In this document: positions 394 to 32,329 of the stretch, one piece after another | How positions within the stretch are numbered: position 1 is the stretch's first letter | Layout of the letters: each line of letters opens with the position of its first letter | Origin: Bacillota bacterium | GTDB taxonomy: Bacteria > Bacillota > Sulfobacillia > Sulfobacillales > Sulfobacillaceae | Direction of reading: 5' to 3' | NCBI GenBank assembly: GCA_021841025.1 | Contig: JAKBWA010000098.1 | Coordinates: forward strand, 1 to 32,915 | DNA length: 32,915 nt | Position numbers and translations under genes: made by a program | The notes under the pieces: model-generated | Database searches by the model: none | Told to the model about the DNA's origin: nothing | What the model saw: only the letters and a program-made list of their open reading frames with translations

Positions 394-1584
394 TTAGAGT
401 TCTTGCCCCAAGATTGTCGGAATATTGGCTGTGTGAACGGCAGGAGAAACGGCAGTTAAGGGTTCGCTGTGTTTGGCCAGAACACGGTATCCGCTATAGG
501 TGAGGACTGATGCCAGCACAATGCCCGCGATTTTGCCGACGAGTCCTCCTTCGGTTCCAAACATATGAGTCATCCAGCCCGTAACACTCACTTGAACAGC
601 CACGCCAATACCTGTGACAAGATAGAAACCAAAACGAGACAACTGTTTGCCGAAAGTATAGCGAGAGTGCAAATTATAGCCGACCAAACTTGCGCCGACC
701 CATGCCACCAGTGATTCAAAACCCGATTGCAGCCCATTGAAATAGGGTGGCCATAACTGAATCAAGCCCCAATAGATGGCCAGATCCACCAAAGTATTAA
801 TCAAGCCAGTAAGCCCAAAGCGCAGAAGCTGACGCGCTTCTCGAGAGGAATGGCGGTGTGATACAGCCAAAGTGAGAAGGGAGGGGGCGCATGCCAGCAT
901 AGTCCATAAACTGGCGCGTCTTTTGCGCACGCTCTTTTGCATAACCGGGACTTCAATGACATCAAGAGGCTGTTCAATCACCCGCAAGAGGGCTTCCACA
1001 TCGTAAAGCCATCCTTCTTGCGCACACTGGGTGAGGACACTGCGCGCGAATGGTCCCGGAAACATTTTGACTCCGGCTTGAGTGTCTTTAATAGGAAGAT
1101 GCAGCACGAATGCCGCGAGTTTGTGGGCGATATGGGACGACAAACGCTCTATGTGGGGCCGATTGTCGGCGACCCGCGAAGCAATGGCACAGGAGTGTTT
1201 GGATTCAAGGACTAATGCGGCCATAATGGGCAAGGCGTTAACCGGATACTCTAAGTCAGCATCAATGAATCCCACGGCCTCACCCTGGCTGTGGCTAAAT
1301 CCGGTTCGAAGGGCGTAGCCCTTTCCGTGATTCTTTTTTAACGCAATGACTTTAACCGAAGGGTAGCGAGTGCTGGCCTTGAGAGCCTCATCATAGGTGC
1401 CGTCAGTAGATCCGTCATCGACAACAATGATTTCAACATCCATATTTATGTGTTCGAATTCTCTGGTGATAGACGCTATGGCCTGGGCGATGTGTTGTTT
1501 CTCATTGTGGGCGGGGATTACCACAGAAACGATCAGGTTTGTGTGGGGATGCATCTTGGGATATTTCTCGGCAATTTCTTGCAT
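394..1584 (-). CDS. GT2 glycosyltransferase fused to a GtrA-like membrane domain
   Basis: The protein (396 aa) has two modules. The first (about residues 15-240) is a GT-A fold family 2 glycosyltransferase of the dolichyl/undecaprenyl-phosphate sugar synthase type, with SVVIPAHNE near the start, the VDDGSTDGT nucleotide-binding turn and a FIDADLEYP metal-binding segment. The second (about 245-370) is a four-helix GtrA-like domain that starts LLRFGLTGLINTLVDLAIY. Such fusions usually load a sugar onto a polyprenyl phosphate and help move it across the membrane. The donor and acceptor are not known here. The chosen ATG has a GAGGGAGG box about 13 nt upstream, a long spacing; an in-frame ATG at residue 11 is possible. 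It is the last gene of the minus-strand surface-polysaccharide block, 484 nt from the previous gene, with terminator-like hairpins in the leader. Confidence 0.85.
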   Translation of the reverse strand: MQEIAEKYPKMHPHTNLIVSVVIPAHNEKQHIAQAIASITREFEHINMDVEIIVVDDGSTDGTYDEALKASTRYPSVKVIALKKNHGKGYALRTGFSHSQGEAVGFIDADLEYPVNALPIMAALVLESKHSCAIASRVADNRPHIERLSSHIAHKLAAFVLHLPIKDTQAGVKMFPGPFARSVLTQCAQEGWLYDVEALLRVIEQPLDVIEVPVMQKSVRKRRASLWTMLACAPSLLTLAVSHRHSSREARQLLRFGLTGLINTLVDLAIYWGLIQLWPPYFNGLQSGFESLVAWVGASLVGYNLHSRYTFGKQLSRFGFYLVTGIGVAVQVSVTGWMTHMFGTEGGLVGKIAGIVLASVLTYSGYRVLAKHSEPLTAVSPAVHTANIPTILGQEL

Positions 1585-2068: not shown

Positions 2069-4378
2069 CTATGGAGTTCCTGCGATTGTGATGGACAAGG
2101 GGAGACTTTTCAACCCACTGCCATTCGTTATGGTTACCGTAGCTTTTCCGGAATTTAGATTGGGTTCAAAGCGGTTATCAATGGCTTCTTTGTTGGTGGG
2201 AATCATAAAAGACACTTGAGAGTTTGACCAATGCAGAATTTTAATCGGATAATAATCCCCCGGCGCGCCGTAATTAACCGTGCCTTGACTGACTTCCACA
2301 TAGCCCTTGCGTTGTTGCGAGCCGAAGCCCGAGCCGCTGAGAGTGACAACTTGGCCAGGGGTAACCGGTAAGGCCGTTTGTATTGCGGCTGGCAAGTGTG
2401 GCGGAGATGTAATACTCAACGACAGTGGCGCTGTGCTTTGTTGGGTTGCTGTGACAATTTGGAGTGATGCGGGACCTGGTGTGAGGGCAGGGCCCGAAGT
2501 GCCGTCAGGAATCTGTACCTGGACTTGAGTATTGGTCCAATGAACAATATGGACTTTGTAAACGTCAGATGGAGATCCATAATTGACGCCGTTTTTACTG
2601 ATGAGAACATAACCGGCACCCTCTTGGCTGCCGAAATGAGATCCCGAGATCGTGACGATTTGTCCGGGATAGACGTGGGCCGAAGGGGTGATAGACGCCG
2701 TAAGATGAGCGGTTGACACGATCGTTACGGGGATGGTGGAAGAAACCACACGGTGAGCGGTTTCGACGAGGATTTGGGCTGTTCCGGGGCTAAGAGCCGG
2801 TCCCGAACTGCCGCCGGGAATGACAAACTGGATTTGATGAGGGGTCCAGGATTTTATTGACACCCTATAAGCATCTCCGGGCCCTCCATAATTGGTTCCG
2901 TTTTGGCTGATGATTACATGGGAGTGGGCTCCTTCATGGCCGAAACCCGTTCCCGATAGGGTGAGGGTTTCACCGGCGAAACCCTTCAAGGGTTTTTGAA
3001 TCTGCGGCACATTGGCTTGATATGTTGATGAGCTTCCCTTCATATCCATTGTGATCTGAAGATCAGATCCTGCCACAGACTGATTGTGATACACCTGCAT
3101 CGAGGCGGGAAGGATTTGGCCGGATCCGTGAGAGAGGGGTAAGGTCTCGGCCTTTGTGCTGGTATTGATGGCAAAGATGTGTGATCCTTGCGCTGAGGTG
3201 ACTTGCCCCACGATCATTTGGGACGTAGCCCATACAGACAAATGGCTTGCGGGGCCAATAGCTTGCATGAATTGGGATAACGCCACGGCCGAGGGATAAA
3301 AAGCGTTCATAGCCAACTCGGGGCTTTGGCCGTCTCCGGCTAAAGCAAAGAGTCCATAGGGTTTAGAAGAATTTGTGGCCACAGGCCATGATGAACTGGC
3401 CACATGGGCTTGCCCGTCATAGCTCCAAATGAAGAGTTTGCTGGCCCCCAAAGCCCGCCAAAGCATGGCGCTTTCAACCATCGCGGCTCCATAGACCGGT
3501 TGAGTGGATTGGGGCCCGGGTTGTCCATAGGGATTGAATTCGGTGACCCAGGTTTGAATGTTTGCGGCATAATGGGGGGAGACATTGGCGGTGATTTCTG
3601 TCTGAACAAACTGCATAGCCTGAGCAATTTCGTTGGGCAAGCTGGCCAACAGTGCTTGATTGCTCAGCGTGTGTTGATTGGGATAATCATGAATGCTGAC
3701 AAAATTGATGTAAGGTCCGTCTTCACGCAGAACGGTCTGATCCCACTGGAGACTGTTAGGGCCCTGGCCGAGGGTAAACGAGACGCCAACTTTCATGGCC
3801 GGGTCAATACGGTGAATCGCTTGGGCAATCAAAGCCGACTGATGGGCATAGTACTGCGGAGAAAAAGACGGATTGAGATTGGCATAGTGATCCCATGCCC
3901 CGTACTCTTCGCTGCCGATCACAATGGCGGAAATGGGCAGGTGATGGGTGACAATGTACTGGGTGAGTTGGGCGGCATCCCCAGGCGTTCCGCCGCCGGT
4001 AAAGGTAGGGTTTTCGTCATAATTAAAGATAAATAATCCTTGATTGGCGGTAGACTGTAAGATATTCCCCCAGTCTTGCAAAGAAACCGGAGCCTTACCG
4101 CCTGAGCGAAACGAATTGGAAGTCCAGCTCCATTCATTGGCATTGGGAAATTGTTGCATGCCCAGGCCTAATTGTCTTAATGCCGGAAGAGTGGAGGGGG
4201 CATTGAGTTGATTGTCATAGGAAAAGACATTAATACCGTAATCATATCGGCTGATTGGGGCTGTGAGAGGCGAGTTGATGGGCGTTGTGGACGCACTAGC
4301 CATCGTTTGAGCACTCATCGCAATAGGCAATAATGCCGCGCCTAAACAAACAGCCAGAGTTTTCGTGAGAACGTGCAT
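2069..4378 (-). CDS. Secreted glycoside-hydrolase-like protein with three IPT/TIG-like repeats
   Basis: This is a 769-aa exported protein. Residues 1-29 form a signal peptide. Residues about 40-320 look like a (beta/alpha)8 catalytic domain of GH-A clan type: IVIGSEEYG (Glu157/158) fits the acid/base strand and WVTEFNPYG (Glu280) the nucleophile strand. Three C-terminal repeats of about 100 residues (459-554, 562-656, 664-766) share a GSGFG-type turn, an NYGxPxDxY segment, a W-T/S-N-x-Q-V/I core and a GPALxPG loop, as in IPT/TIG immunoglobulin-like modules. The substrate is unknown; cleavage or binding of the locus's own exopolysaccharide is an inference. The start at 4378 is chosen because AAGGGGG lies 10 nt upstream and the signal peptide begins there; an upstream in-frame ATG would put the terminator hairpin inside the coding region. 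A c-di-GMP-I riboswitch and terminator precede it. Confidence 0.8.
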   Translation of the reverse strand: MHVLTKTLAVCLGAALLPIAMSAQTMASASTTPINSPLTAPISRYDYGINVFSYDNQLNAPSTLPALRQLGLGMQQFPNANEWSWTSNSFRSGGKAPVSLQDWGNILQSTANQGLFIFNYDENPTFTGGGTPGDAAQLTQYIVTHHLPISAIVIGSEEYGAWDHYANLNPSFSPQYYAHQSALIAQAIHRIDPAMKVGVSFTLGQGPNSLQWDQTVLREDGPYINFVSIHDYPNQHTLSNQALLASLPNEIAQAMQFVQTEITANVSPHYAANIQTWVTEFNPYGQPGPQSTQPVYGAAMVESAMLWRALGASKLFIWSYDGQAHVASSSWPVATNSSKPYGLFALAGDGQSPELAMNAFYPSAVALSQFMQAIGPASHLSVWATSQMIVGQVTSAQGSHIFAINTSTKAETLPLSHGSGQILPASMQVYHNQSVAGSDLQITMDMKGSSSTYQANVPQIQKPLKGFAGETLTLSGTGFGHEGAHSHVIISQNGTNYGGPGDAYRVSIKSWTPHQIQFVIPGGSSGPALSPGTAQILVETAHRVVSSTIPVTIVSTAHLTASITPSAHVYPGQIVTISGSHFGSQEGAGYVLISKNGVNYGSPSDVYKVHIVHWTNTQVQVQIPDGTSGPALTPGPASLQIVTATQQSTAPLSLSITSPPHLPAAIQTALPVTPGQVVTLSGSGFGSQQRKGYVEVSQGTVNYGAPGDYYPIKILHWSNSQVSFMIPTNKEAIDNRFEPNLNSGKATVTITNGSGLKSLPLSITIAGTP

Positions 4379-4410
4379 AGAGACAATTCCCCCTTGTGAG
4401 GAGAATGTTG

Positions 4411-4452
4411 AAAAAAGGACAGCCTCCCGAAAAGGGGGAAACTGTCCTTTTT
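4411..4452 (-). terminator. Intrinsic terminator between the riboswitch and the glycoside hydrolase
   Basis: On the minus strand aaaaaggacag (4452-4442) pairs with ctgtccttttt (4422-4412), with a smaller G/C-rich inner stem, and the 3' arm ends in six T. It lies 8 nt after the riboswitch and about 33 nt before the start codon, exactly where the expression platform of a transcriptional riboswitch belongs. Confidence 0.8.
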
Positions 4453-4460
4453 GTCCCATC

Positions 4461-4555
4461 CCATTTCGGCAACTGGCTGGCATTCGTCTTGTCCACGAGA
4501 AGCCCCTTTAGTTTTGCGTCTCCAGCTTTCGCTAGGTTTGCCTTTTTCGATATGG
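4461..4555 (-). promoter_or_regulatory. c-di-GMP-I (GEMM) riboswitch
   Basis: On the minus strand the aptamer core is present in order. GGCAAACC (4542-4535) is followed by a P2 stem CUAGC-GAAA-GCUGG with the GAAA tetraloop, then GACGCAAA (4520-4513), then a CUAAA segment that fits the tetraloop-receptor side of P3, and finally UGCCAGCCAGUUGCC (4482-4468), which matches the conserved 3' strand. The outer ends CCAUAUC (4554-4548) and GAAAUGG (4467-4461) pair with one mismatch to close P1. This class binds cyclic di-GMP. The output is probably transcriptional, through the adjoining terminator. Whether ligand turns the gene on or off cannot be read reliably by eye. Confidence 0.9.
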
Positions 4556-4737: not shown

Positions 4738-6402
4738 TTAGGGAGCTGAAGGTAAAATGGCATACAGCCGATAATCATTGCCTCCCGGAAAAGATTTAAT
4801 AAGGTGGGTCCATGGTTCGTGTCCGGCCCACAACCCGGGCCATGCCCGGGTGACGGCGTCGAGCTGAGCTACGTTAGCGGGCCTCGGAACAAGAAAGGCC
4901 GCGATGCGTCCTTTGGGATTATGAAGAATCGATGCAAATTTATAATCCGATGTTATGGTGAACTGATTAAGGTGCTTGGCGCGTATAATGATGGGCCAAT
5001 CAATAAAGGTATCCGCCAAAATGCTGAGGTGGGGATGGTTATTGATGTATTGTACAAGCGGTTGACCGGCATAAAAGGGATTGTTGCCCGTATACTTTAA
5101 ATTCTGGCCTTGAAAGGCCGCATCGAGAATTGAACCGTCAGGATGGCCTAGATAAGAGACTTGAAGAGTTCTTAGTGTGACAACACTGCCGGAAACAAAG
5201 ACGACACTAACGAGAAGACCGGTCCAGAACACTCGGGTTTTGGACCAAGATGGCCACCCGGAGCAAATTTTCTGGACAGCAAACGAGCCCAAGAGAATAC
5301 CGTTCGGAATAAATTCGAGAAAATATCGATCCCATTGCCCCAAATGCCCTTCGTAACAGAAGAACAGTTCCAGCAATTCCGCTCCTATGGTTCCCAAGAT
5401 GAGAATAATCCCTCGTGCGTCGCGCCTTTTGCCGAAAGAGAACCACAGCGTGATTAAGAAGGCAGGATAAATCGGCCAATAAAACAGGCCGAAGCGCACA
5501 ACGTAAAGCACAGCTCCCAAGATATGATGATCGGCCTGAGACATAGCTGGGGTCATATAGGCTCCCGTAGCCGTTTGAGCTAAATTCCCATAACTGGAAG
5601 TGAGAAAATATAGGGGGTTTTTCATGATAATCCAGTTGAAATAAATCCAAATTCCTCCCGCAAACACGATCGGTGCTCCTAACAGGATTGCGGATCCTTG
5701 TATATGAGACAATGATTTTTTGCCCCATTGTCCCAGAACTAAGGCGATAATGACCAGAAGGCCGAAAGCCACAGCCTCATAGCGCATTCCCAGGCCTGCC
5801 CCCAACCAAAAACCTGCAACAACCAAACGGCGCAGAGAACCCGTTTGGAGATAGTCGAAGAGTCCGCTATAAGTTCCCAGCATACAGGCCACCCACATGA
5901 TGTCGCTCATGCCGTTGGCTCCATAGAGGACAATAAGCGGATTCAAGGAAAAGCACAATGTCAGGACCACACGCCACCATTTGGGCAGCGATATATTTTT
6001 GAGAATATGAGCGAGATGATAAGTTGCTATTGATCCTAGCGCTGCTGATACCACTGCTCCCGCCAGACCTTTAGTCACAACAGACGGAAACCAAGGGTGC
6101 AGCGCGACAAACGGAAGCTCCAACAGGCTTGGCAATGGATTCCAAATGAATCCGATGGCGCCCAAATGCGGGTTGCGGCTAAACAACACGTAGTAGGCGT
6201 TGGCTACCCGCGATACGGCATCTCCTGCATAATAGTGCATGTCGAATACGAGATATGCCGCAAAAGCGCAATTCACGATAAATGCCGATAGGGAAATCAC
6301 AGCTTCTAGGCTTATGCGATGCATCTTTTTTGTATTGTGCCGGGATTCACGTTTTAATGATTGAGCATTCTCAATAGGACGATCAAGTATGGCACTACTC
6401 AT
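4738..6402 (-). CDS. Polytopic GT39/ArnT-like glycosyltransferase
   Basis: This 554-aa integral membrane protein has roughly ten hydrophobic helices. After the first helix it has an extracytoplasmic loop with GDAVSR, where GT39/GT83 (protein mannosyltransferase and ArnT) proteins carry their catalytic acidic residues, and GMRYEA further on. Proteins of this fold use polyprenyl-phosphate sugars on the outer face of the membrane, which fits the GT2-GtrA gene of the same locus as donor maker; that pairing is inference. The start at 6402 is chosen because AGGAGAA lies 5 nt upstream, and ATGAGTAG makes it overlap the stop of the upstream two-TM gene, implying translational coupling. A weak hairpin (cggatt / aatccg, 4706-4724) follows the stop. 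Acceptor and sugar are unknown. Confidence 0.7.
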   Translation of the reverse strand: MSSAILDRPIENAQSLKRESRHNTKKMHRISLEAVISLSAFIVNCAFAAYLVFDMHYYAGDAVSRVANAYYVLFSRNPHLGAIGFIWNPLPSLLELPFVALHPWFPSVVTKGLAGAVVSAALGSIATYHLAHILKNISLPKWWRVVLTLCFSLNPLIVLYGANGMSDIMWVACMLGTYSGLFDYLQTGSLRRLVVAGFWLGAGLGMRYEAVAFGLLVIIALVLGQWGKKSLSHIQGSAILLGAPIVFAGGIWIYFNWIIMKNPLYFLTSSYGNLAQTATGAYMTPAMSQADHHILGAVLYVVRFGLFYWPIYPAFLITLWFSFGKRRDARGIILILGTIGAELLELFFCYEGHLGQWDRYFLEFIPNGILLGSFAVQKICSGWPSWSKTRVFWTGLLVSVVFVSGSVVTLRTLQVSYLGHPDGSILDAAFQGQNLKYTGNNPFYAGQPLVQYINNHPHLSILADTFIDWPIIIRAKHLNQFTITSDYKFASILHNPKGRIAAFLVPRPANVAQLDAVTRAWPGLWAGHEPWTHLIKSFPGGNDYRLYAILPSAP

Positions 6403-6619
6403 AGGTTTTCTCCTGGGTAACGACGTGGGGAACAGTGGACGAAAGCGGCGCTGCTTTATCGCGTTTTTTATGTGAGGACAGTACTCCATAAACCACCCCT
6501 GTGCCGATAAAGAAGACTAAGGGGGCCAAGTCGATAATCCAAAAAATTCCCAACATTAATATCAAACTGGTTGCTATCATAAAGAGCGCGCCTATAATTA
6601 TGGCGTAGGGTCGAAGCAA
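6395..6619 (-). CDS. Small two-TM membrane protein, possible glycosyltransferase partner
   Basis: This 74-aa protein has two hydrophobic helices (about residues 4-24 and 28-48) joined by a very short loop, then a basic, charged tail of about 25 residues. The TTG start is supported by AAAGGAG 8 nt upstream, and the stop overlaps the ATG of the next gene. I do not recognise a named family. Its size, topology and position just after a processive GT2 gene recall PgaD, the small two-TM partner of PgaC in poly-N-acetylglucosamine synthases. That analogy rests on layout, not on sequence match. Confidence 0.65.
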   Translation of the reverse strand: MLRPYAIIIGALFMIATSLILMLGIFWIIDLAPLVFFIGTGVVYGVLSSHKKRDKAAPLSSTVPHVVTQEKTYE

Positions 6620-6677: not shown

Positions 6678-8870
6678 CTATCCATTAGATTGCAGAAATC
6701 CGGATGGCGATTGAACTTTCTTCCAGTCGACCAGGCCATGATCGGTCTTTTCCCAGTGCGAGGGTCTGGTTATAAGCTGAATGAGAGCTTTCCATGAGGC
6801 CAAAGACATCATGCTCCAGTAGATCGGGGTGAGAATGGTGTATGGCACCAAGTCCCATCGCCCGCGTTTGGCAGCGCCGACACTGTTGAGGTAAGTGAAG
6901 GCAAAATTGCCGATTAGGAGATTCATCATCCCCAGATAATAAATGCCGGGCGGGAATAGATGGGGGATAAGGCCCCAATGAGTCATAAACCATAACGAGG
7001 TGATAAACCAGTACAAAGGATTGAGGATGAACATGAGTGGAGTCCCTAAAATGGCCAGCTGAAATCCCCAGAACCCCTTGCGCCCCAGTTGCCGGCGCAA
7101 CTGGAGAGGATGGCGCATATGAACAAGCCAGGTTTGCAAGTAGCCCTTAATCCACCGGGAACGCTGTCTGATCCAATTGACAAATTCCGAATTGGCTTCT
7201 TCATAGGTTAGGGAATCGATGACAGCCGTCCGGTAGCCGACTTTGTGCAAGCGAATTCCCAGATCGGCGTCTTCGGTCACGTTGTACGGATCCCATGCTC
7301 CGATTTCTTTCAGGACGCGGGCGCGGAAATGATTCGACGTGCCTCCTAACGGAATGGGCATGTCGGCCGCATGAAGAGCCGGCAAAAGCAAGTCAAACCA
7401 CGCGCCGTATTCTGCTGTAAACCACCGGGTTAGGAGATTTTGATTCGCATTAAAATAGGACAACTTGGCTTGAACACAAGCCAGGCGACTGTCCGCTCCG
7501 CGAAAAGCTAATAGTGCCTTTTTAAGCTGAGAGGGTTCGGGAAGGTCTTCAGCATCATAGATTGTGATAAATTCTCCTCGCGCCCGCTGCAAGCCAAAAT
7601 TGCAGGCCTTGGGTTTCGTCCGCGGCTCAGCCACCGGAACTATGACGATTTCGACAAAATGGGGAAGATTGGCTTGATGGGCAGCAGCTAGTGTTGTTTC
7701 ATCGTCTTCTTCCAACAAGAGTTTGACATCTAGGCGATCACGAGGATAGTCGAGTTGCTGCAAGGCATGGGACATGATCGGCAAAACCGACGCTTCATCC
7801 CGAGCCGGTATCAAAATGGTGTAAATGGGGAGATCTGAATCTTTAAGCTTTCGTAACTCTTCGGCCGTGAATTGGACATCATTTTGGGATTGGGTGCCTT
7901 TGTGGATAATCCAAAGCCGGTGCGCCACTAAAATCGCGTACGCGAACACCACCATACTGCTTATCACCGACAGAGTGACTTGAGCATGCCATATGAGCAT
8001 GAGGGTCACAAGGATACTCGTCGCTCCAAGGGCGAGAAACTGGCCACGAGTCACGGTCCTCGTGGCAGAATTCTCTGGGCTGATGTCGAGAAGATGGGAC
8101 TTGGCGCGTTTAAGGTCTTGTTCCTGGTAATGTCGGGCCAGTTGCCAGGCAATGTCTCTTTGCCCGGTTAATGTGACGGTGATCTGTCTGTCGGTTTTGG
8201 ACGCTAAGGACATCGGCCCTTTGTTGTCAAAAGGATTCACCATTGCCACTATGATTTCCTTTGACGTGGAAGAAACGGGCACCATGCCGTATCGTCTCCA
8301 TTCTTCTTCGCTCAAAAGAGAGAAGACGGCATCAAGGCTTTGGGAATCTTGCTCTCTTGGCTCAAGGAGATCGGTTAAAGGAATGCCGGTTTGCTCACTT
8401 ATAATGGTTGCCACTTGCCAGGAATTCAGCGCATGGATTGCTACGCAGGCTTGCCCGATAGTCCCTCCCTGTTTTTGTTGAATGGTGAGAGCCTGGTCTA
8501 GGAGTTGAGGATTGAGGGCATATTTTTTGATAGCAATTTCTCCAAAGCGTGACGGGTTTTCACCCGGGGTGCCGTAAATTTTCCACTGGGCCATGAGTAA
8601 ATCACTCAACTCGGTGCGGTAGATGCGTACCGGACCTAAAGGGTCTAAGAGTGCCCACGCGGCTGGAGACAAAGGTGCGGAGGCAGCCACCCATAAACAG
8701 CCGCCTTTGCGGCAAAAAGGAAGGATGCCCATGTCCCGGGCCTGGTCGGGGCTGATAAGGAAGGCGGCGGACGGATCAATGTCGTGGCCGGGAATTGCTG
8801 CGTGATGACTACCGCTAATTAAGGCAACAGGAGGGACTTGATTCCAAAGTTCGATGGGATTGACACTCAC
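6678..8870 (-). CDS. Processive GT2 glycosyltransferase with N-terminal MshEN-type c-di-GMP module
   Basis: This 730-aa protein resembles XagB-type exopolysaccharide synthases. Residues about 108-170 match the two tandem motifs of the MshEN (GspE N-terminal) domain: RFGEIAIKKYALNPQLLDQA, then GGTIGQACVAIHALNSWQV and EQTGIPLTDL. In MshE such motifs bind c-di-GMP. Helices near 278-320 anchor the protein. The cytoplasmic GT-A domain follows (350-575) with TILIPARDE, LLLEEDD, IYDAEDLPEP, TEDADLG and QRSRW, which correspond to the D, DxD, TED and QxxRW motifs of cellulose and PNAG synthases. More helices close the protein. The GTG start has GTGAGG about 8 nt upstream. It lies between the exosortase and the two-TM gene. 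Likely role: polymerising and extruding a surface polysaccharide under c-di-GMP control. The monomer is unknown. Confidence 0.85.
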   Translation of the reverse strand: MSVNPIELWNQVPPVALISGSHHAAIPGHDIDPSAAFLISPDQARDMGILPFCRKGGCLWVAASAPLSPAAWALLDPLGPVRIYRTELSDLLMAQWKIYGTPGENPSRFGEIAIKKYALNPQLLDQALTIQQKQGGTIGQACVAIHALNSWQVATIISEQTGIPLTDLLEPREQDSQSLDAVFSLLSEEEWRRYGMVPVSSTSKEIIVAMVNPFDNKGPMSLASKTDRQITVTLTGQRDIAWQLARHYQEQDLKRAKSHLLDISPENSATRTVTRGQFLALGATSILVTLMLIWHAQVTLSVISSMVVFAYAILVAHRLWIIHKGTQSQNDVQFTAEELRKLKDSDLPIYTILIPARDEASVLPIMSHALQQLDYPRDRLDVKLLLEEDDETTLAAAHQANLPHFVEIVIVPVAEPRTKPKACNFGLQRARGEFITIYDAEDLPEPSQLKKALLAFRGADSRLACVQAKLSYFNANQNLLTRWFTAEYGAWFDLLLPALHAADMPIPLGGTSNHFRARVLKEIGAWDPYNVTEDADLGIRLHKVGYRTAVIDSLTYEEANSEFVNWIRQRSRWIKGYLQTWLVHMRHPLQLRRQLGRKGFWGFQLAILGTPLMFILNPLYWFITSLWFMTHWGLIPHLFPPGIYYLGMMNLLIGNFAFTYLNSVGAAKRGRWDLVPYTILTPIYWSMMSLASWKALIQLITRPSHWEKTDHGLVDWKKVQSPSGFLQSNG

Positions 8871-9003: not shown

Positions 9004-10629
9004 TTAGTTTGGTTTTGGGTTTTTGAGGCTCTGGCGAAAAATTTTTCCAGCCATCGCAATCAAGGTGGCACGGGTTTTCAAAAGCGTGGGATTCCAATGT
9101 CCCTGAGAAGCTGGCGCTACCATAGACTGAACCACAGACAACGGTTGCAGGGGACGGGAATGATCAAAGCCTGGAGGCAGAGACGGAGCATTATGGGGAA
9201 AGGCCGCGATTGACCAACGCATGTAGCGTTCCTGTCCATGAACCATGACAGCGTTATTCCATTCCACATCGACGTAAGTTGAACGTGGCCCTCCGACATG
9301 GTTGGGGGGAAGTTGTACGCTGTAAGCCGTGGCAATGACCCCGGGTACCAGTTGGAATGACTGCACAGCTTGTAGAGAATCGCCATGGTACAGCAAACAG
9401 GCGTGAAATCCGTATGTTGCCAGTTTGGAAGCAAAAGGCGTACTCCACATCTCCACCAGTGCCTGGCCCCCGCCTTTCTGCAAGGAATACATATCAGCCT
9501 GAGTGGCAGAACCCAGACCCAAAATAGAGGATTCATTGGCATAATAGACCGGATTTTGAACAAATCCTGTTAAACGCGGCAGAAAAGTGCGCGGATTAAA
9601 AACCGGAACGGTGGAAGGATTGCCGAATGATCCTTTGGGCAGGGAGAAGAGCGGCCACGAGAGTATAAAGATCAAGGCTGCGAAAATTGCGGCACTTCCC
9701 ATGCGTCCCCACCCGGGTTTCTTAACGCGCGATGCGGCAAGAGGAGGAACACTCAGTCCGAACGGCCGGGACAAAAGCATGAGAGATGCGACCAACATCG
9801 CGAATAGTAAAAAGCCCAGGACAGGGTGAATATCAGCAAACGTAAACTTGGGGCCGATAGTGTGGACAGAGAGCACAATGACGGCCAGACGGACCCAGTT
9901 AATAATGAGGGAGCCCAAAAGGGCAATGAGGCTGATCCCAATTTTATTGATCACCCGCCCTTTGAAGGCAAACCATAAGACGGGAATCACAATGGCAGAA
10001 CCTAAGAGGCTATCTGCGCCGCTACAGGCTTGAGCCACCACGACTAACACCGGATAGTGGTGATAGGATACCAAGAATGTGCCAAAGGGCAGCGAGGGCG
10101 CGAGCCATTTCACGTGATGAGCAAGAAGCATCAAAGATTCTACGGCCCAACGAACCAGAACATTTTGGGTGGCGTTGGCAATCGCGGCAAAAATGGGAGG
10201 CCAAACTAAGAACAGATACGTTAGGGGGGCCAAAACGGCTCTGGTGGCGGGCAAACCCCAAAAGAGCCAAGTCATGGCCAAGATCCAAAATGGCCACAAT
10301 AACAATCCGCCGTGGTCATGGACGAAAAGGGTCGGCCATCTTTCCGGAGCTAAAACCAGTGCGGCCCCAATCATGATCGCCAGCATAGCGCCTAGAATCA
10401 GATTGAGTTCTCCGTCCTCCGGCTCACTGGAATTGTTGGCCAGGATGTTCCATAGAGCCCATCCCAGAGCAATTATTGGGATCCAAATTAAATCGGCAAT
10501 CGGCGTGTCAGCCAATAAATTGTTCCATAACGGATTGGCATAAGCCAATAATGGAATTACTGAGACAATAATCCATAATAGCCAATATGCCGATAACCGG
10601 TTGACATGGTGTCGTTCAACATTAGTCAC
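9004..10629 (-). CDS. Exosortase with a C-terminal extracytoplasmic domain
   Basis: This 541-aa polytopic protein belongs to the exosortase/archaeosortase family. The catalytic triad is visible: Cys202 in QACSGADS, Arg247 in INWVRLAV and His268 in DIHPVLGF, each next to a membrane helix as in the family. After the last helix (about 315-330) some 200 residues follow that are rich in aromatic and polar residues; this is the position that EpsI-like domains occupy in fused exosortases, but I cannot confirm homology. The GTG start at 10629 is chosen for GGGGGAGG 7 nt upstream. Exosortases cleave PEP-CTERM tails and are usually found with exopolysaccharide genes; the next gene upstream encodes a candidate substrate and the next downstream a polysaccharide synthase. 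Finding one in an apparently monoderm genome is uncommon. Confidence 0.85.
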   Translation of the reverse strand: MTNVERHHVNRLSAYWLLWIIVSVIPLLAYANPLWNNLLADTPIADLIWIPIIALGWALWNILANNSSEPEDGELNLILGAMLAIMIGAALVLAPERWPTLFVHDHGGLLLWPFWILAMTWLFWGLPATRAVLAPLTYLFLVWPPIFAAIANATQNVLVRWAVESLMLLAHHVKWLAPSLPFGTFLVSYHHYPVLVVVAQACSGADSLLGSAIVIPVLWFAFKGRVINKIGISLIALLGSLIINWVRLAVIVLSVHTIGPKFTFADIHPVLGFLLFAMLVASLMLLSRPFGLSVPPLAASRVKKPGWGRMGSAAIFAALIFILSWPLFSLPKGSFGNPSTVPVFNPRTFLPRLTGFVQNPVYYANESSILGLGSATQADMYSLQKGGGQALVEMWSTPFASKLATYGFHACLLYHGDSLQAVQSFQLVPGVIATAYSVQLPPNHVGGPRSTYVDVEWNNAVMVHGQERYMRWSIAAFPHNAPSLPPGFDHSRPLQPLSVVQSMVAPASQGHWNPTLLKTRATLIAMAGKIFRQSLKNPKPN

Positions 10630-10875
10630 ATCAAGTCCTCCCCCGAAAACTCGTTGCCTAACACTCGAGCCCATGCTATGGCACGAGAGGATACTTTGAC
10701 AGTCCCTCCCACGGTCTCAAACTCAGTATCATGGCAGGGCACAGAGGATCCCTGGAGTGACTTTAGTTGTAGATTCGAGCGCCCACACAACATGGGAAAA
10801 AGAGAGAACGATTCCGAGTCACAAGAAATGAAAATCACCTGAGTAAAGGTCTTGGAATAGTAGGGGCAGGGAAAA
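10630..10875. other. Leader region ahead of the exosortase gene
   Basis: About 245 nt separate the exosortase start from the terminator of the PEP-CTERM-like gene. A minus-strand frame of 70 codons (10626-10838) ends with a TGA that overlaps the exosortase GTG, but it has no ribosome binding site and no recognisable content. I see no riboswitch core and no strong promoter. Confidence 0.4.
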
Positions 10876-11653: not shown

Positions 11654-11716
11654 CCTTGAGAAAATATTGGGTAAAATTCCGGAAATGATCCGATGAAGTG
11701 GGAAGGATGTTACGAT

Positions 11717-13471
11717 ATGTATTCGTTTGTATCAGGGGCGTTGGGGCACAAAGAGGATAATAGCCAGGGGCTTTGTCCGTGGTCAGAGAAAGATATCTCA
11801 CAGATGGCCGATTTACCTTGGCAGGCTATTACGGATCGTGCTTTGGCCTTATGCGCCGCCGAGACCAAACGCAGTAACTCCAGAGAAAATGCGGGAAAAC
11901 AGTTGGCAAATCTTCGTGAACAGACTTTAGTGGCATTACGAGAAGTGTGCGAAAGGCTTCGAAACGCTCCGGCATCCCCGGACTGGCGATTACCCTCGCG
12001 AACGGACGCACTGACTTCTTATACTAAAGCCCGTCGATCCATTGATGAAGGACTCCAGGGATATTGGTTGATACTGTCGGCGACTATTGATGAATTATTC
12101 GCCTCGCAAAAACCTGCTTCTGTGATTCAAGAGTATCTGAAAACCTTGTTTAAACGGGTGTTGCTGGAGGTTTATCTAACGGGTTCCCATCACCTTTCTG
12201 ATTTTATGTTTCGTGATGTTGTCACTTTTAGCGCCAACCGTTTGGCCACGCAATTACGACTGGAGGCGCTTTTAGCACAAAAAAGCCCCTTTGTGTTGAT
12301 TTCTGCTGATTTAAACGGTTTCAAAGCTGTCAATGACACCTATGGGCATGCTGCTGGGGACAGTGTTCTGAATGTGGTGGCGCAAAGATGGCAGAGGTTA
12401 TTGCGACCCTCTGATTGGATGGGCCGGTGGGGAGGCGATGAATTCGTATTGATTTTGTCCAATCCCTTAAGCGCTAAAGCCGTTGTGGATTTTGGGAACC
12501 GCATTCGCCAAGCTTGTGAAGAACCGATCGCGTTGGCAGAGATTGACCGGGTTACCGTGTCTTCTTCCTATGGATATGCCCGCTATCCCGAAGAAGGTGA
12601 GGACATCGAACAAATCCTGGCGGTAGCCGATCAGAGACTTTATTTAGCCAAACAATTCTTGGCAGGGGGTGTTGATTCAAGCCGGGTCGATATTAGTGAG
12701 AGCACTAAATGGTCGGAGCGTATCCAAACGGCCCTAAAGACCAACCGTATTGATGTGTACTACCAACCAATTTTGCATAATGATGTGAATGTGCCATTCC
12801 AATGGGAAGCCCTGGTCCGATACCGGGACATAAACGGACAAATGCATTATCCCTCCGAATTTTTACCCGTTCTTCCGCCGGATGTTGTTCAGCAAATGGA
12901 TCAAGCCGTTATTGGCCGTGTGTTTGAAGATGTAAACCGCTGGCGTTCACGAAATCACCGTTTTAGGGTGGCCGTCAATGTTCATCCTTCCGATCTGGCC
13001 GCAACCCAGTGGAAAACACATTTAACCCGCTTGCATGATGAATTTCCTTTAGTGCTGCCCCAAGATATTACCTTCGAGGTGCGAGAATCTCTGACTGACA
13101 AGGGAGGATACCACATCATGGAATCGCTTCGCCATTTGCAGCACCAGGGATATCAAATTGCTCTGGATGATTTTGGTACGGGCACTACTCCTTTGCATGG
13201 ACTGCACAAGATGCCCATAAATTCCGTTAAAATCGATTTCACGCTGACAAGACAATGGGGGTCCGACGCAGGTCGGCGACTCATTCGGTCTGTCATTGGG
13301 TTGGCGACGTCCATGGGGTTGTCTGTCATTGCCGAAGGCATAGAGAGTCAGACACAACAAGACCTCTTAAGTCAATGGGGCTGCCAGGCCGGGCAAGGCT
13401 GGCTTTACACCGAGGCTATACCCTCTGCGGAAGTAGAAGGATGGACATTCCCCAGCCATGTCGTCAAGTGA
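11717..13471 (+). CDS. GGDEF-EAL protein (diguanylate cyclase / c-di-GMP phosphodiesterase)
   Basis: This 584-aa cytoplasmic protein has three parts. Residues 1-185 are mostly helical and match no domain I recognise. The GGDEF domain (190-320) has SADLNGFKAVND, an intact GGDEF at 239-243 and an inhibitory I-site RPSD at 230-233, exactly five residues before it. The EAL domain (335-575) keeps the catalytic set: Glu364 of EALVRY, Asn421 of VNVHPSDL, Glu454 of FEVRES, Asp484-Asp485 of DDFGTG, Lys505, Glu540 of AEGIES and Gln560 of GQGW. Both activities may therefore be possible, with product inhibition of the cyclase. The start at 11717 is chosen for GGAAGG 10 nt upstream; an ATG 24 nt earlier has no such site. 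The gene is divergent from the exosortase/polysaccharide block and is an obvious candidate to set its c-di-GMP level. Confidence 0.92.
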   Translation: MYSFVSGALGHKEDNSQGLCPWSEKDISQMADLPWQAITDRALALCAAETKRSNSRENAGKQLANLREQTLVALREVCERLRNAPASPDWRLPSRTDALTSYTKARRSIDEGLQGYWLILSATIDELFASQKPASVIQEYLKTLFKRVLLEVYLTGSHHLSDFMFRDVVTFSANRLATQLRLEALLAQKSPFVLISADLNGFKAVNDTYGHAAGDSVLNVVAQRWQRLLRPSDWMGRWGGDEFVLILSNPLSAKAVVDFGNRIRQACEEPIALAEIDRVTVSSSYGYARYPEEGEDIEQILAVADQRLYLAKQFLAGGVDSSRVDISESTKWSERIQTALKTNRIDVYYQPILHNDVNVPFQWEALVRYRDINGQMHYPSEFLPVLPPDVVQQMDQAVIGRVFEDVNRWRSRNHRFRVAVNVHPSDLAATQWKTHLTRLHDEFPLVLPQDITFEVRESLTDKGGYHIMESLRHLQHQGYQIALDDFGTGTTPLHGLHKMPINSVKIDFTLTRQWGSDAGRRLIRSVIGLATSMGLSVIAEGIESQTQQDLLSQWGCQAGQGWLYTEAIPSAEVEGWTFPSHVVK

Positions 13472-14901: not shown

Positions 14902-16560
14902 TCATATGTCTTCTTCGCGTTCCATCACGGTGTTTTCGCCAAGCTGAGTTTCAATCTGAAGTCCTGGAGCCTTGCATAGGTCATGACAATTGGCTTCAAG
15001 ACTGCAACACAAGGAACAAATCGTGCCTTGGTGATGCGGACAATGCATCATGTCGCGGGTTTCGAAAGAAAAATCGCAGACCTTGCAGTTTAATTCCCCA
15101 GAAAGCTGGACGATTTCAGGGCTGGTCCGGGCAATATAATAGCGGCCCCGGGTAATAATGGCAATCATGGGTGAAAGCACAAAGGCTAAAATGAGAGACA
15201 AAAAGGAAGAAAAGGCGGCAAGAGTGGCGCCAAATAGGCCAAAATAGGCGGTAATAGAGACAATAGACGCGATAATCATCGCGCCGAAGCCCACGGGATT
15301 GAAATGATATAAATGTCCCCTCCTGAACTCGATGTAGCTGGGGCTAAGTTTAAGAATGGGTTTATTTATCACCAGATCGGCAACCAGGGCTCCAATCCAA
15401 GCCACTGCAACATTGGAATAGAAACCCAAAACCGCACTGAGAAAGTTAAACACGCCCAGTTCCATCAAAGTCAAGGCGATACCTACATTTAAAATCAACC
15501 ATACCACCCGGCCGGGATGAGCGTGAAAGATGCGGGAAAAGAAATTGGACCACGACAAAGATCCTGAATAGGCATTGGTCACATTGATCTTAACCTGGGA
15601 GATTAAGACAAAGAACGTGCCGATCGTTAAGGCCATGGCGACACTGGGTATCCATAGATGCAGGGCATGTAGATACATTTGAATGGGTTGGTCCGCTTTG
15701 ACGGGGCCCACCAGAGGTGATGCGAAAGAAGCGAGAACTGAACCGCCGATTTGTTTGGCGGCACCGAGAATAACCCATCCCGGCCCTGCGAGAAGCACCG
15801 CGCGCCACCATGCCCGCTTGTTATGTTCTGTCAAATCGGGCATGAAGCGGAGATAGTCGACTTGTTCGCCGATTTGGGCAATTAAAGACAACGTCACACC
15901 TGCAGCGGCCCCAAAGAACAAGGCATTAAAGGTTCCTTGTCCGTGGCTTCCCAAAAAATGTGTCCAGTGTGTAAATATCTGGGGTTGTTTAGTGGCGATA
16001 ACAATGAGAGGCAACACCAAAAGGGCAAGCCACAGGGGCTGGGTCCAGACCTGCAATTTGGACAAGAATGTCATTCCATATATGACTAAAGGGATAATAG
16101 ACACCGAAGCCACGACATAGCTCAAGGCTAAAGGAATGCCAAAGTAGACCGTAAGTGCCTGGGACATCACCGATCCTTCCAAGGAAAAATAAATAATGGT
16201 GAAGGAGGCATAGATCAACGAGGTCAGCGTGGATCCGTAATAGCCAAAACCAGCTCCACGGGTAAGCAAATCCATGTCGATATTGTAGCGGGCCGCATAA
16301 TAGGCAATGGGGATGCCCGTCAAGAAGATGATAGCGGCTACGACGAGAATGGCGGGTAAGGCATTGGAAAAGCCATAACTTAGCGTAATGGAACCGCCAA
16401 TAGCAAAGTCAGCGAGATAGGCAATGCCGCCTAAAGCCGAGCTGGCTACGGCAAACTCACTCCAACGCCGGAATGATTTTGGGGCATAACGCAATGCATA
16501 ATCTTCCATGACAGGGTTGTTGACAAAGGAATTAAACTGCCTTTTGGAAAGTTTTTTCAC
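14902..16560 (-). CDS. NCS1-family permease with cysteine-rich C-terminal tail
   Basis: This 552-aa protein has about twelve membrane helices and the look of nucleobase:cation symporter 1 (cytosine/purine/hydantoin) permeases: an N-terminal NPVMEDYALRYAPKSFRRW segment leading into the first helix, then IPIAYYAARYNIDMDLLTRG. The last 64 residues form a soluble, Cys-rich module with eight cysteines (492, 495, 507, 515, 518, 519, 525, 529), including CPHHQGTICSLCCSLEANC. From memory, a closely similar CPxxxGxICSLCC module links NCS1-like permease domains to histidine kinase or cyclase domains in larger sensor proteins. Here the protein ends soon after, with no enzyme domain. The GTG at 16560 is chosen for TAGGGGGT about 7 nt upstream. 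Substrate unknown; it lies downstream of panB-panE but 183 nt away. Confidence 0.8.
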   Translation of the reverse strand: MKKLSKRQFNSFVNNPVMEDYALRYAPKSFRRWSEFAVASSALGGIAYLADFAIGGSITLSYGFSNALPAILVVAAIIFLTGIPIAYYAARYNIDMDLLTRGAGFGYYGSTLTSLIYASFTIIYFSLEGSVMSQALTVYFGIPLALSYVVASVSIIPLVIYGMTFLSKLQVWTQPLWLALLVLPLIVIATKQPQIFTHWTHFLGSHGQGTFNALFFGAAAGVTLSLIAQIGEQVDYLRFMPDLTEHNKRAWWRAVLLAGPGWVILGAAKQIGGSVLASFASPLVGPVKADQPIQMYLHALHLWIPSVAMALTIGTFFVLISQVKINVTNAYSGSLSWSNFFSRIFHAHPGRVVWLILNVGIALTLMELGVFNFLSAVLGFYSNVAVAWIGALVADLVINKPILKLSPSYIEFRRGHLYHFNPVGFGAMIIASIVSITAYFGLFGATLAAFSSFLSLILAFVLSPMIAIITRGRYYIARTSPEIVQLSGELNCKVCDFSFETRDMMHCPHHQGTICSLCCSLEANCHDLCKAPGLQIETQLGENTVMEREEDI

Positions 16561-16743
16561 GAGAAGACCCCCTACCGAGAAAGATTCCACACAATCTTTG
16601 TGGATCTGTTTAAGAATAGCGGACTTCACGAAAAATTTTTTGTGCCGCCATGACAAGAAATAGCGGGGAAGATGCATCATCCCCCAAGTGGGTGGCATCT
16701 TCTCAAGCGATCTAGACAGAATCCGAAATTTGACGGAGTAGGG

Positions 16744-30030: not shown

Positions 30031-30352
30031 ATCAAGTCAAATCTAAGAGATTAACAGTGCACTGCAACCGATGAAAGGCTGTTGTGGTGCCATATAGTGC
30101 ACATTGACTGCGGGAGGTCTTTAACTCTAGTAACATGCAGCCCTACAGCATGAGCCAAGATGGGGAGGGAGAAAAAGGGGAGCTAATAAGCGCTTATGGC
30201 TTTGAGGCTCCAGTTCTTATCTCTAATTAACTTGGAGAAACTCAATCTCTAAAATTTTTCAAAAATTTTAGAGGATTTTAAGATAACACCTCGAATATTA
30301 CACAATATACCAATTTGTCAAATGATATGAACTACATAAATTGGAGAAAATA
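30031..30352. other. 322-nt leader region before the diguanylate cyclase
   Basis: No gene is supported. It holds a nested inverted-repeat structure at about 30057-30102 (outer arms gtgcact and agtgcac, inner caac and gttg), and the perfect 13-bp palindrome at 30247-30273. The sequence after 30230 is strongly A+T-rich. I looked for the c-di-GMP-I riboswitch core and did not find it, and no promoter is clear enough to call. Confidence 0.5.
30247..30273. repeat. Perfect 13-bp inverted repeat upstream of the diguanylate cyclase
   Basis: ctctaaaattttt and its exact reverse complement aaaaattttagag are separated by a single C. In RNA it could form a terminator-like hairpin with a T-rich 3' side only in part; as DNA it is a candidate operator. 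It ends 79 nt before the start codon at 30353. Confidence 0.6.
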
Positions 30353-32329
30353 ATGAGTGCCTATTTAGCAGGGGACCGTCACGATGTCAATGATGTAATT
30401 TGGGCAATACGTACTTTGGAATGGACAATTGGGGCCATTTTCGCAGTATTTATACCGTTTCGCTGGATTATATGGGCGGTGGCCGCTCTTTACTGGAGCA
30501 TTTCTCTATGGATTAAGAAACATCCCAATCCGCCATATGCCCAAAGACTCTTGCGGTTGAATCAAACCATGATTCTTGTGGATATCGTTCTTCTCTCTTT
30601 AGTGGTGAGCGTTACCGGCGAACTTCATAGTCAGGTTTTCATTCTTTATTCCGTCGAACTTCTTTTTCTGGCGATATATTCGTCTATCTTTTGGTCACTA
30701 TGGGGAATTGCGGCTATCTGGGTGAGTTATGGGCTAGCCTGTGGGGATTGGATGAATCCGGAATTGTGGTGGCGGGAATTTATTTTGGGATTTATTGGCG
30801 TTTCTGCAACTCTGTTAGGAGTGTCCTTACGCCATACCATTAGAAAATTCCAACAAAACAGCTTACACCTGGAACAGGTGATGGCTTTAAAGACCTTGCA
30901 GGAATCCGTGCTCAAGCTATCAAGCCTTTCAGACTCGATAGCCGCAATTTTGCAAACAGGTATTCGTTTGCTGGATACGGACGGTGGCTATGTGTGCCAG
31001 CAAACACCGACAGGCAGGCACGTGATTAGTCAAATCGGGTTCGACGTCAGCAAAGAGCGGAGTTTTTGGGAACGTTACGAATCATTGACGTTGGATCGGG
31101 GAGTGATAACCTATTATCCCCATTTAGAAAATCATGCTCATCGTCAAACATCCTTTGGACTACCGGATCCCAAGACGCGGGAACTGATCTTGATCCCTCT
31201 GCGAGACCAAGAGGCGATTATCGGCATTATGGGATTTACGAGGAGCCAGAAAAAACCACCCTTGAGTGATCGTCGAGTTATTTTGGAAGGTCTGGCCGAA
31301 ATGGTAGTCAATCAAATACGTTTCGAAAAGGCTCAGATCAGTGCATTAAAACGGGGGAGGCTGTTGGCAGTTCTGGAACGGGTTGGACGAATCGTGAACT
31401 GTAATCTTGAAATGAGCACACTTTTGCGGTCTTTGCACCAGGCTTCAGCAGAAGAATTAGAAATTGATTCCTTTTTTGTAGCACTAAGTGTTCCCGATGA
31501 CCCTTCGAAAATTCTTATGCAATATTTATTTGATGATGGGAAAGAATATGCTCCGGAAATCATGGATGTCGGAGCGGGCGCGCCTACGGAACATGTGCTG
31601 ACAACACAAGAGCCTCTATTGCTTAATGGCAGCATGGATTCATCGCAACCAACCGGTTCGTTCCGGATTCCCAAGAGTGCCATTATTGTCCCTTTGATTC
31701 GAGAAGGACAAGTCATTGGCGCCATGTCTGTGCAGTCGTATCGCATTTCTTATGATGAAGACCATATGGAGTTCGTATTGTCTGTGGCTTCACAAGCGGC
31801 TATCGCCATTAAGAATGCGCAATTATATCAACAGACGGAGTCTATCGCCTTGACCGATTACTTGACACATTTGGGTAATTCACGTCAATTTTCCGTCATG
31901 TTGCAAGAGGCTGTAGACTATGCGTCAAGTACCGGATCGTCATTGTCTTTGCTTTTGATCGATTCAGACAGCCTGAAGAAGATCAATGATCACTATGGAC
32001 ACATCGCGGGCGATGCTCACTTGCAATTTGTAGCCAATGTTATTCGCCGTAATGTCCGGAGCATGGATACAGCTTGCCGGTATGCGGGTGACGAATTTGT
32101 CGTGATTTTACCCGGAGCCCATCTTGATGAGGCGGTGACGGTAGGAGAACGCATCCGGCGTGAAATGGACGGAAAATTTGCTTGGAATGATTCGATGATC
32201 GGCACCACTGTCAGCGTTGGAGCAGCGGAATTTTTCGTTCCCATGACGACGGAGGAATTATTCACAGCAGCTGACCGTGCGATGTACAGTGCTAAACGAG
32301 GAGGGAAAAATCGTGTGGCTGTGTCCTGA
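30353..32329 (+). CDS. Membrane GAF-GAF-GGDEF diguanylate cyclase
   Basis: This 658-aa protein starts with about five to six hydrophobic helices (residues 15-165), followed by a short coiled linker, a GAF-like domain (about 190-325), a second GAF domain (about 345-490, with AIIVPLIREGQVIGAMSVQS) and a GGDEF domain (495-658). The active-site motif is AGDEF (578-582), a variant found in working cyclases, and IDSDSLKKINDHYGH supplies the metal and substrate residues. An inhibitory I-site RSMD (569-572) lies exactly five residues upstream. It should make c-di-GMP from two GTP in response to signals read by the membrane or GAF domains. The ATG at 30353 follows TTGGAGAA; the TTG inside that site is not the start. 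It could feed the riboswitch and MshEN glycosyltransferase at the other end of the window. Confidence 0.9.
   Translation: MSAYLAGDRHDVNDVIWAIRTLEWTIGAIFAVFIPFRWIIWAVAALYWSISLWIKKHPNPPYAQRLLRLNQTMILVDIVLLSLVVSVTGELHSQVFILYSVELLFLAIYSSIFWSLWGIAAIWVSYGLACGDWMNPELWWREFILGFIGVSATLLGVSLRHTIRKFQQNSLHLEQVMALKTLQESVLKLSSLSDSIAAILQTGIRLLDTDGGYVCQQTPTGRHVISQIGFDVSKERSFWERYESLTLDRGVITYYPHLENHAHRQTSFGLPDPKTRELILIPLRDQEAIIGIMGFTRSQKKPPLSDRRVILEGLAEMVVNQIRFEKAQISALKRGRLLAVLERVGRIVNCNLEMSTLLRSLHQASAEELEIDSFFVALSVPDDPSKILMQYLFDDGKEYAPEIMDVGAGAPTEHVLTTQEPLLLNGSMDSSQPTGSFRIPKSAIIVPLIREGQVIGAMSVQSYRISYDEDHMEFVLSVASQAAIAIKNAQLYQQTESIALTDYLTHLGNSRQFSVMLQEAVDYASSTGSSLSLLLIDSDSLKKINDHYGHIAGDAHLQFVANVIRRNVRSMDTACRYAGDEFVVILPGAHLDEAVTVGERIRREMDGKFAWNDSMIGTTVSVGAAEFFVPMTTEELFTAADRAMYSAKRGGKNRVAVS

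Follow-up and report, generated by a model that had tools for sequence, protein, structure and literature searches.

Introduction

Two described GEMM-I riboswitches serve as comparisons for the RNA analysed here. In Cd1, which precedes the flagellar operon of C. difficile, the strand that stabilises the aptamer also builds an antiterminator, whilst aptamer and terminator can coexist, and the riboswitch is an OFF switch (PMC9262584). The pilM riboswitch is an ON switch in which a strand of the aptamer forms part of the terminator, so that the two structures are mutually exclusive (PMC9262584).

Here we describe a c-di-GMP-I riboswitch in a stretch of 32,915 nucleotides (the window), contig C116 in the 3.39-Mb draft genome of a Sulfobacillus-type acidophile. 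As in Cd1, the leader is predicted to make an antiterminator from the aptamer-stabilising strand, and its terminator is compatible with the aptamer; it differs from Cd1 in its target gene and in that the antiterminator strand finds its partner in the apex of the terminator hairpin. The RNA is an additional member of a well-known class, and it matches the class model RF01051 over its full length, but its target, in Sulfobacillus-type bacteria, is a clan-A glycosidase that carries TIG domains and is predicted to be secreted. The sister family c-di-GMP-I-GGC (RF03167) belongs to the same clan, and the window copy scores as RF01051 instead. What is new is the conservation of a predicted OFF anatomy, the conserved association of the RNA with a single family of glycosidases and its setting amongst polysaccharide genes; text searches of open-licence papers returned no paper on this riboswitch–glycosidase pair. 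We consider it probable that the RNA is a c-di-GMP-I OFF switch for a clan-A glycosidase, which would be made at low c-di-GMP and would trim or release the organism's own matrix.

Results

A c-di-GMP-I aptamer upstream of the glycosidase gene

4552-4465, minus strand: c-di-GMP-I (GEMM-I) aptamer, covariance-model match to RF01051
4555-4548, minus strand: 5′ strand of the P1 helix, CCATATCG, forming 7 of 8 possible pairs with CGAAATGG at 4468-4461
4378-2069, minus strand: glycosidase with TIG domains, 769 aa, signal-peptide-like N terminus, identified by Pfam TIG and fold matches

The Rfam model RF01051 matches 4552-4465 of the minus strand over its full length (model positions 1-87) with 71.9 bits and an E-value of 2e-12, about twice the gathering score of 35 bits, and a scan of the whole window with Rfam gave nothing else above threshold. 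The first-pass annotation had proposed a c-di-GMP-I riboswitch at this site, to be checked with Infernal and RF01051, and the claim passes that check clearly. Every motif it had named on the minus strand is present and in order, with GGCAAACC at 4542-4535, GACGCAAA at 4520-4513 and GCCAGCCAGTTGCC at 4481-4468, and the conserved core comprises GGCAAA, a GNRA-capped P2, GACGCAAA and a GCC 3′ strand. The closing stem P1 was likewise correctly placed, and is a short, interrupted helix of −1 to −8 kcal/mol.

The G that precedes the GC of GGCAAA occupies position 11 of the model in the RF01051 alignment, which we take to be position 20 of GEMM-I. A G20A change leads to cGAMP binding in GEMM-I, and the G observed here fits c-di-GMP as the likely ligand rather than cGAMP.

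The gene starts at ATG 4378, with GGGGG at 4393-4389 upstream as the Shine-Dalgarno sequence. ATG 4483, the mechanical start of the open reading frame, was rejected as the start of the gene as it lies inside the aptamer. A promoter scan gave hits about as frequently as in shuffled sequences, and no promoter was assigned.

The riboswitch is kept before one glycosidase family

We searched 61 genomes for homologues of the glycosidase, the best of which matched with E-values of 1e-58 or better; these came from Sulfobacillus and Bacillota bins, including the complete chromosome of S. thermotolerans Kr1. Twenty leaders were extracted, including those of the window and of a second contig of the draft, C106. 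The riboswitch class lies upstream of the glycosidase in 19 further homologues from related genomes, although these homologues are related to one another and their counts are not independent. A homologue from a different family of the same class also has the riboswitch upstream. In three nearly closed genomes, of one to three contigs each, the sole c-di-GMP-I match precedes the glycosidase gene. For three leaders the best match was the sister family RF03167 rather than RF01051. One long homologue (G036) had no riboswitch upstream in a search to an E-value of 1, and another (G023) was found without one, but at the edge of a contig. That the riboswitch is kept before the same gene across genera and families supports control of this gene better than a single locus could.

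A predicted clan-A glycosidase with TIG domains

Pfam detects only TIG domains in the glycosidase, and no glycoside hydrolase family model in Pfam or NCBIfam matches it. A profile search gave a weak match to GH51 chains (E = 4e-6), and E157 aligned with the acid/base glutamate of Araf51 in a profile search. The AlphaFold2 model has a mean pLDDT of 82, and a fold search recovered GH51, GH79 and GH39 structures matching residues 34-433 at Z scores of 24-27, the top match being the GH51 structure 1pz3 (Z 27.1, rmsd 3.0, 352 residues aligned). Neither E157 nor E280 varies among 21 homologues, and in the TIM barrel that characterises clan GH-A they would supply the two catalytic glutamates at strands 4 and 7. 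The fold prediction, together with these glutamates, places residues 34-433 among the clan-A-type glycosidases, with TIG domains following towards the C terminus. The window protein shares this fold with the GH51 α-L-arabinofuranosidases 1pz3 and Araf51 (5o7z), and also with GH79 and GH39 enzymes, but is only 13-16% identical to the GH51 arabinofuranosidases and differs in its TIG domains. The label of glycoside hydrolase with TIG, assigned at first pass, was therefore right on the strength of the Pfam TIG match, the clan-A fold prediction and the two glutamates. By eye, the N terminus resembles a signal peptide, suggesting a secreted enzyme.

The glycosidase gene lies among polysaccharide genes

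394-1584, minus strand: GT2-GtrA glycosyltransferase (Pfam), recurring near the glycosidase
4738-6489, minus strand: PMT_2-type membrane glycosyltransferase (Pfam), the glycosidase's most constant neighbour
6678-8870, minus strand: MshEN-GT2 polysaccharide synthase-like protein with QxxRW (PF05157 and PF13632)
9004-10674, minus strand: exosortase-like membrane protein (PF09721), recurring in relatives
11693-13471, plus strand: GGDEF-EAL protein
30341-32329, plus strand: second GGDEF protein

In most relatives the glycosidase gene is found a few kilobases from the MshEN-GT2 and PMT_2 genes, whilst gene order and strand vary. This recurrent proximity despite reshuffling argues that the glycosidase belongs with polysaccharide production. 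In six genomes the orientation of the gene with respect to the synthase is reversed, and here too the riboswitch is found on the glycosidase; following the gene through these inversions argues that the riboswitch controls the glycosidase.

The same surroundings bear on what the enzyme cuts. It is possible, although we do not favour it, that the RNA is an OFF switch for a glycosidase that forages on foreign polysaccharides rather than acting on the organism's own matrix, and the presence of arabinofuranosidases, glucuronidases and heparanases amongst the nearest solved folds would suit such an enzyme. Against a forager speaks the position of the gene, which in most relatives has stayed close to the MshEN-GT2, PMT_2 and exosortase genes through the rearrangements. 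An OFF switch acting on an own-matrix glycosidase is the reading we prefer, and the most likely substrate would be the product of the polysaccharide synthase genes nearby, a matrix that the enzyme would trim or release.

The assembly encodes at least nine confident GGDEF domains, two of them within the window. In E. coli NfrB, the MshEN domain is a c-di-GMP-binding domain that activates the transferase (PMC8669469). NfrB shares MshEN, GT2 and QxxRW with the neighbouring gene at 6678-8870, although MshEN is N-terminal in the window protein and C-terminal in NfrB. The c-di-GMP motif of MshEN consists of two copies of RLG..LxxxLxxQ (PMC5013675); in the window protein RFG and TIG replace RLG, and the NCBIfam motif score is 25 bits against a cut-off of 38. 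Amongst relatives the arginine of the motif is mostly lost, with glycine and glutamine kept. The window protein may or may not bind c-di-GMP, and control of the synthase by c-di-GMP appears doubtful; dual control through MshEN was weakened as a main claim by this degenerate motif.

Terminator, antiterminator and the direction of switching

4452-4411, minus strand: intrinsic terminator, a 17-bp hairpin and T tract, −25.0 kcal/mol, arms 4452-4436 and about 4428-4411
4469-4460, minus strand: aptamer 3′ strand, which is the P1 3′ strand, CCGAAATGGG, common to the antiterminator
4436-4427, minus strand: antiterminator 3′ strand, CCCTTTTCGG, in the terminator apex, forming 9 of 10 pairs with 4469-4460

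The terminator begins 8 nt past P1 and ends before ATG 4378, as the first-pass annotation had it. The folding offers an alternative pairing, between CCGAAAUGGG (4469-4460) and CCCUUUUCGG (4436-4427) within the terminator hairpin. Before completion of the terminator, 8.3 of the 10 bases of the window's aptamer tail are expected to pair downstream, compared with 1.8 in shuffles. At this stage, with the 3′ arm still to be transcribed, the antiterminator is more stable than P1 by 3.1 kcal/mol, and once the arm is present it is worse by about 10 kcal/mol; this reversal is as expected of a kinetically trapped antiterminator.

We folded 15 leaders before and after the terminator 3′ arm. Truncated transcripts mostly adopted the antiterminator and complete ones mostly the terminator, and across leaders the antiterminator helix joins CCGAA-nn-GGG of the aptamer 3′ strand to CCC-n-UUCGG in the terminator apex. 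The mean expected number of tail bases paired downstream is 6.5 of 10, compared with 2.3 if the downstream sequence is shuffled. The antiterminator recurs in 12 of the 15, each with roughly 6 or more of its 10 tail bases predicted to pair downstream, and nine leaders individually reach p<0.05 in the shuffle test, whilst the computed folding of the other three gave no antiterminator.

No nucleotide is common to P1 (4468-4461) and the terminator (4452-4411), so that the bound aptamer and the terminator can coexist. Part of the strand shared with the antiterminator is the CC just after UUG of the aptamer, the site of a ligand-contacting C in the Vc2 structure; ligand binding and the antiterminator should therefore exclude each other. 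Since the antiterminator is made from the aptamer 3′ strand and the terminator is compatible with the aptamer, the OFF direction is predicted, and c-di-GMP should terminate transcription. With c-di-GMP bound, the 3′ strand of the aptamer (4469-4460) would stay tied up in P1 and the ligand pocket; the terminator would then form and the gene would go unread. In the absence of ligand, the same strand would pair with the emerging terminator apex at 4436-4427, and the 5′ arm thus enclosed would be kept from the 3′ arm, allowing the polymerase to read through, so that the glycosidase would be made at low c-di-GMP. The shortness and interruption of P1, the three leaders that fold with no antiterminator and the G036 homologue lacking a riboswitch count against this reading.

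We think it unlikely that the switch runs in the opposite sense, with the ligand preventing the terminator and the glycosidase being made at high c-di-GMP, where it would help matrix synthesis or maturation. PslG and BcsZ, synthase-partner glycosidases of other exopolysaccharide systems, give such a role a precedent. The existence of GEMM-I switches of the ON type is shown by pilM (PMC9262584). Unlike pilM, however, P1 and the terminator are separate in this leader, and the shared strand makes the antiterminator, which argues for the OFF direction.

A hairpin over the Shine-Dalgarno sequence

4406-4386, minus strand: hairpin covering the Shine-Dalgarno GGGGG at 4393-4389, −8.0 kcal/mol, shuffle p 0.01

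This hairpin lies between the T tract and the start codon. The outer pairs of such hairpins are changed between leaders, for example AUUC/GAAU versus GUGC/GCAC. Comparable hairpins overlap the Shine-Dalgarno sequence in 11 of the 15 leaders (8 of these with shuffle p<0.05) and could be taken to mean that control is chiefly translational, the terminator being secondary, but this is very improbable given a strong, conserved terminator and a computed Shine-Dalgarno accessibility in the window that is equal in the terminator and antiterminator states (0.28 versus 0.29). Coupling of the terminator state to release of the Shine-Dalgarno sequence was rejected on the same calculation, which showed no change.

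Discussion

Taken as a whole, the predicted OFF anatomy, the link to a single glycosidase family and the surrounding polysaccharide genes suggest that the matrix is trimmed or released as c-di-GMP levels drop. From the conserved anatomy, c-di-GMP, a signal that promotes biofilms, is predicted to turn the glycosidase off, and own-matrix trimming or release at low c-di-GMP is the most likely role of the enzyme. This would tie c-di-GMP to a defined, predicted secreted enzyme in mineral-leaching acidophiles, for which attachment to ore matters in practice. The predicted OFF sign and the specific bases involved make the switch testable by mutation.

More speculatively, one messenger might act with opposite signs within one cluster: c-di-GMP would support the MshEN-type synthase whilst the riboswitch stops the matrix glycosidase, a fall in c-di-GMP would reverse both, and the Shine-Dalgarno hairpin would add a second layer of control.

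The OFF reading suggests that in several Sulfobacillus genomes, each with a single c-di-GMP-I match, the sole riboswitch of this class would serve matrix release. The window species, too, probably has one. A second RF01051 match in the same draft, on C106, precedes a 34% identical paralogue of the glycosidase; C106 is probably a stray contig, because it is about 100% identical over 16 kb to G006, the genome of another species, whereas another contig of the draft is 70-78% identical to G006. The possibility of two riboswitches per genome was accordingly rejected, and C106, as a probable contaminant, was left uncounted. An open reading frame of 598 aa at 14902-16698 on the minus strand of the window, with no Pfam or NCBIfam match at an E-value of 0.01, has an 88% identical copy on C106.
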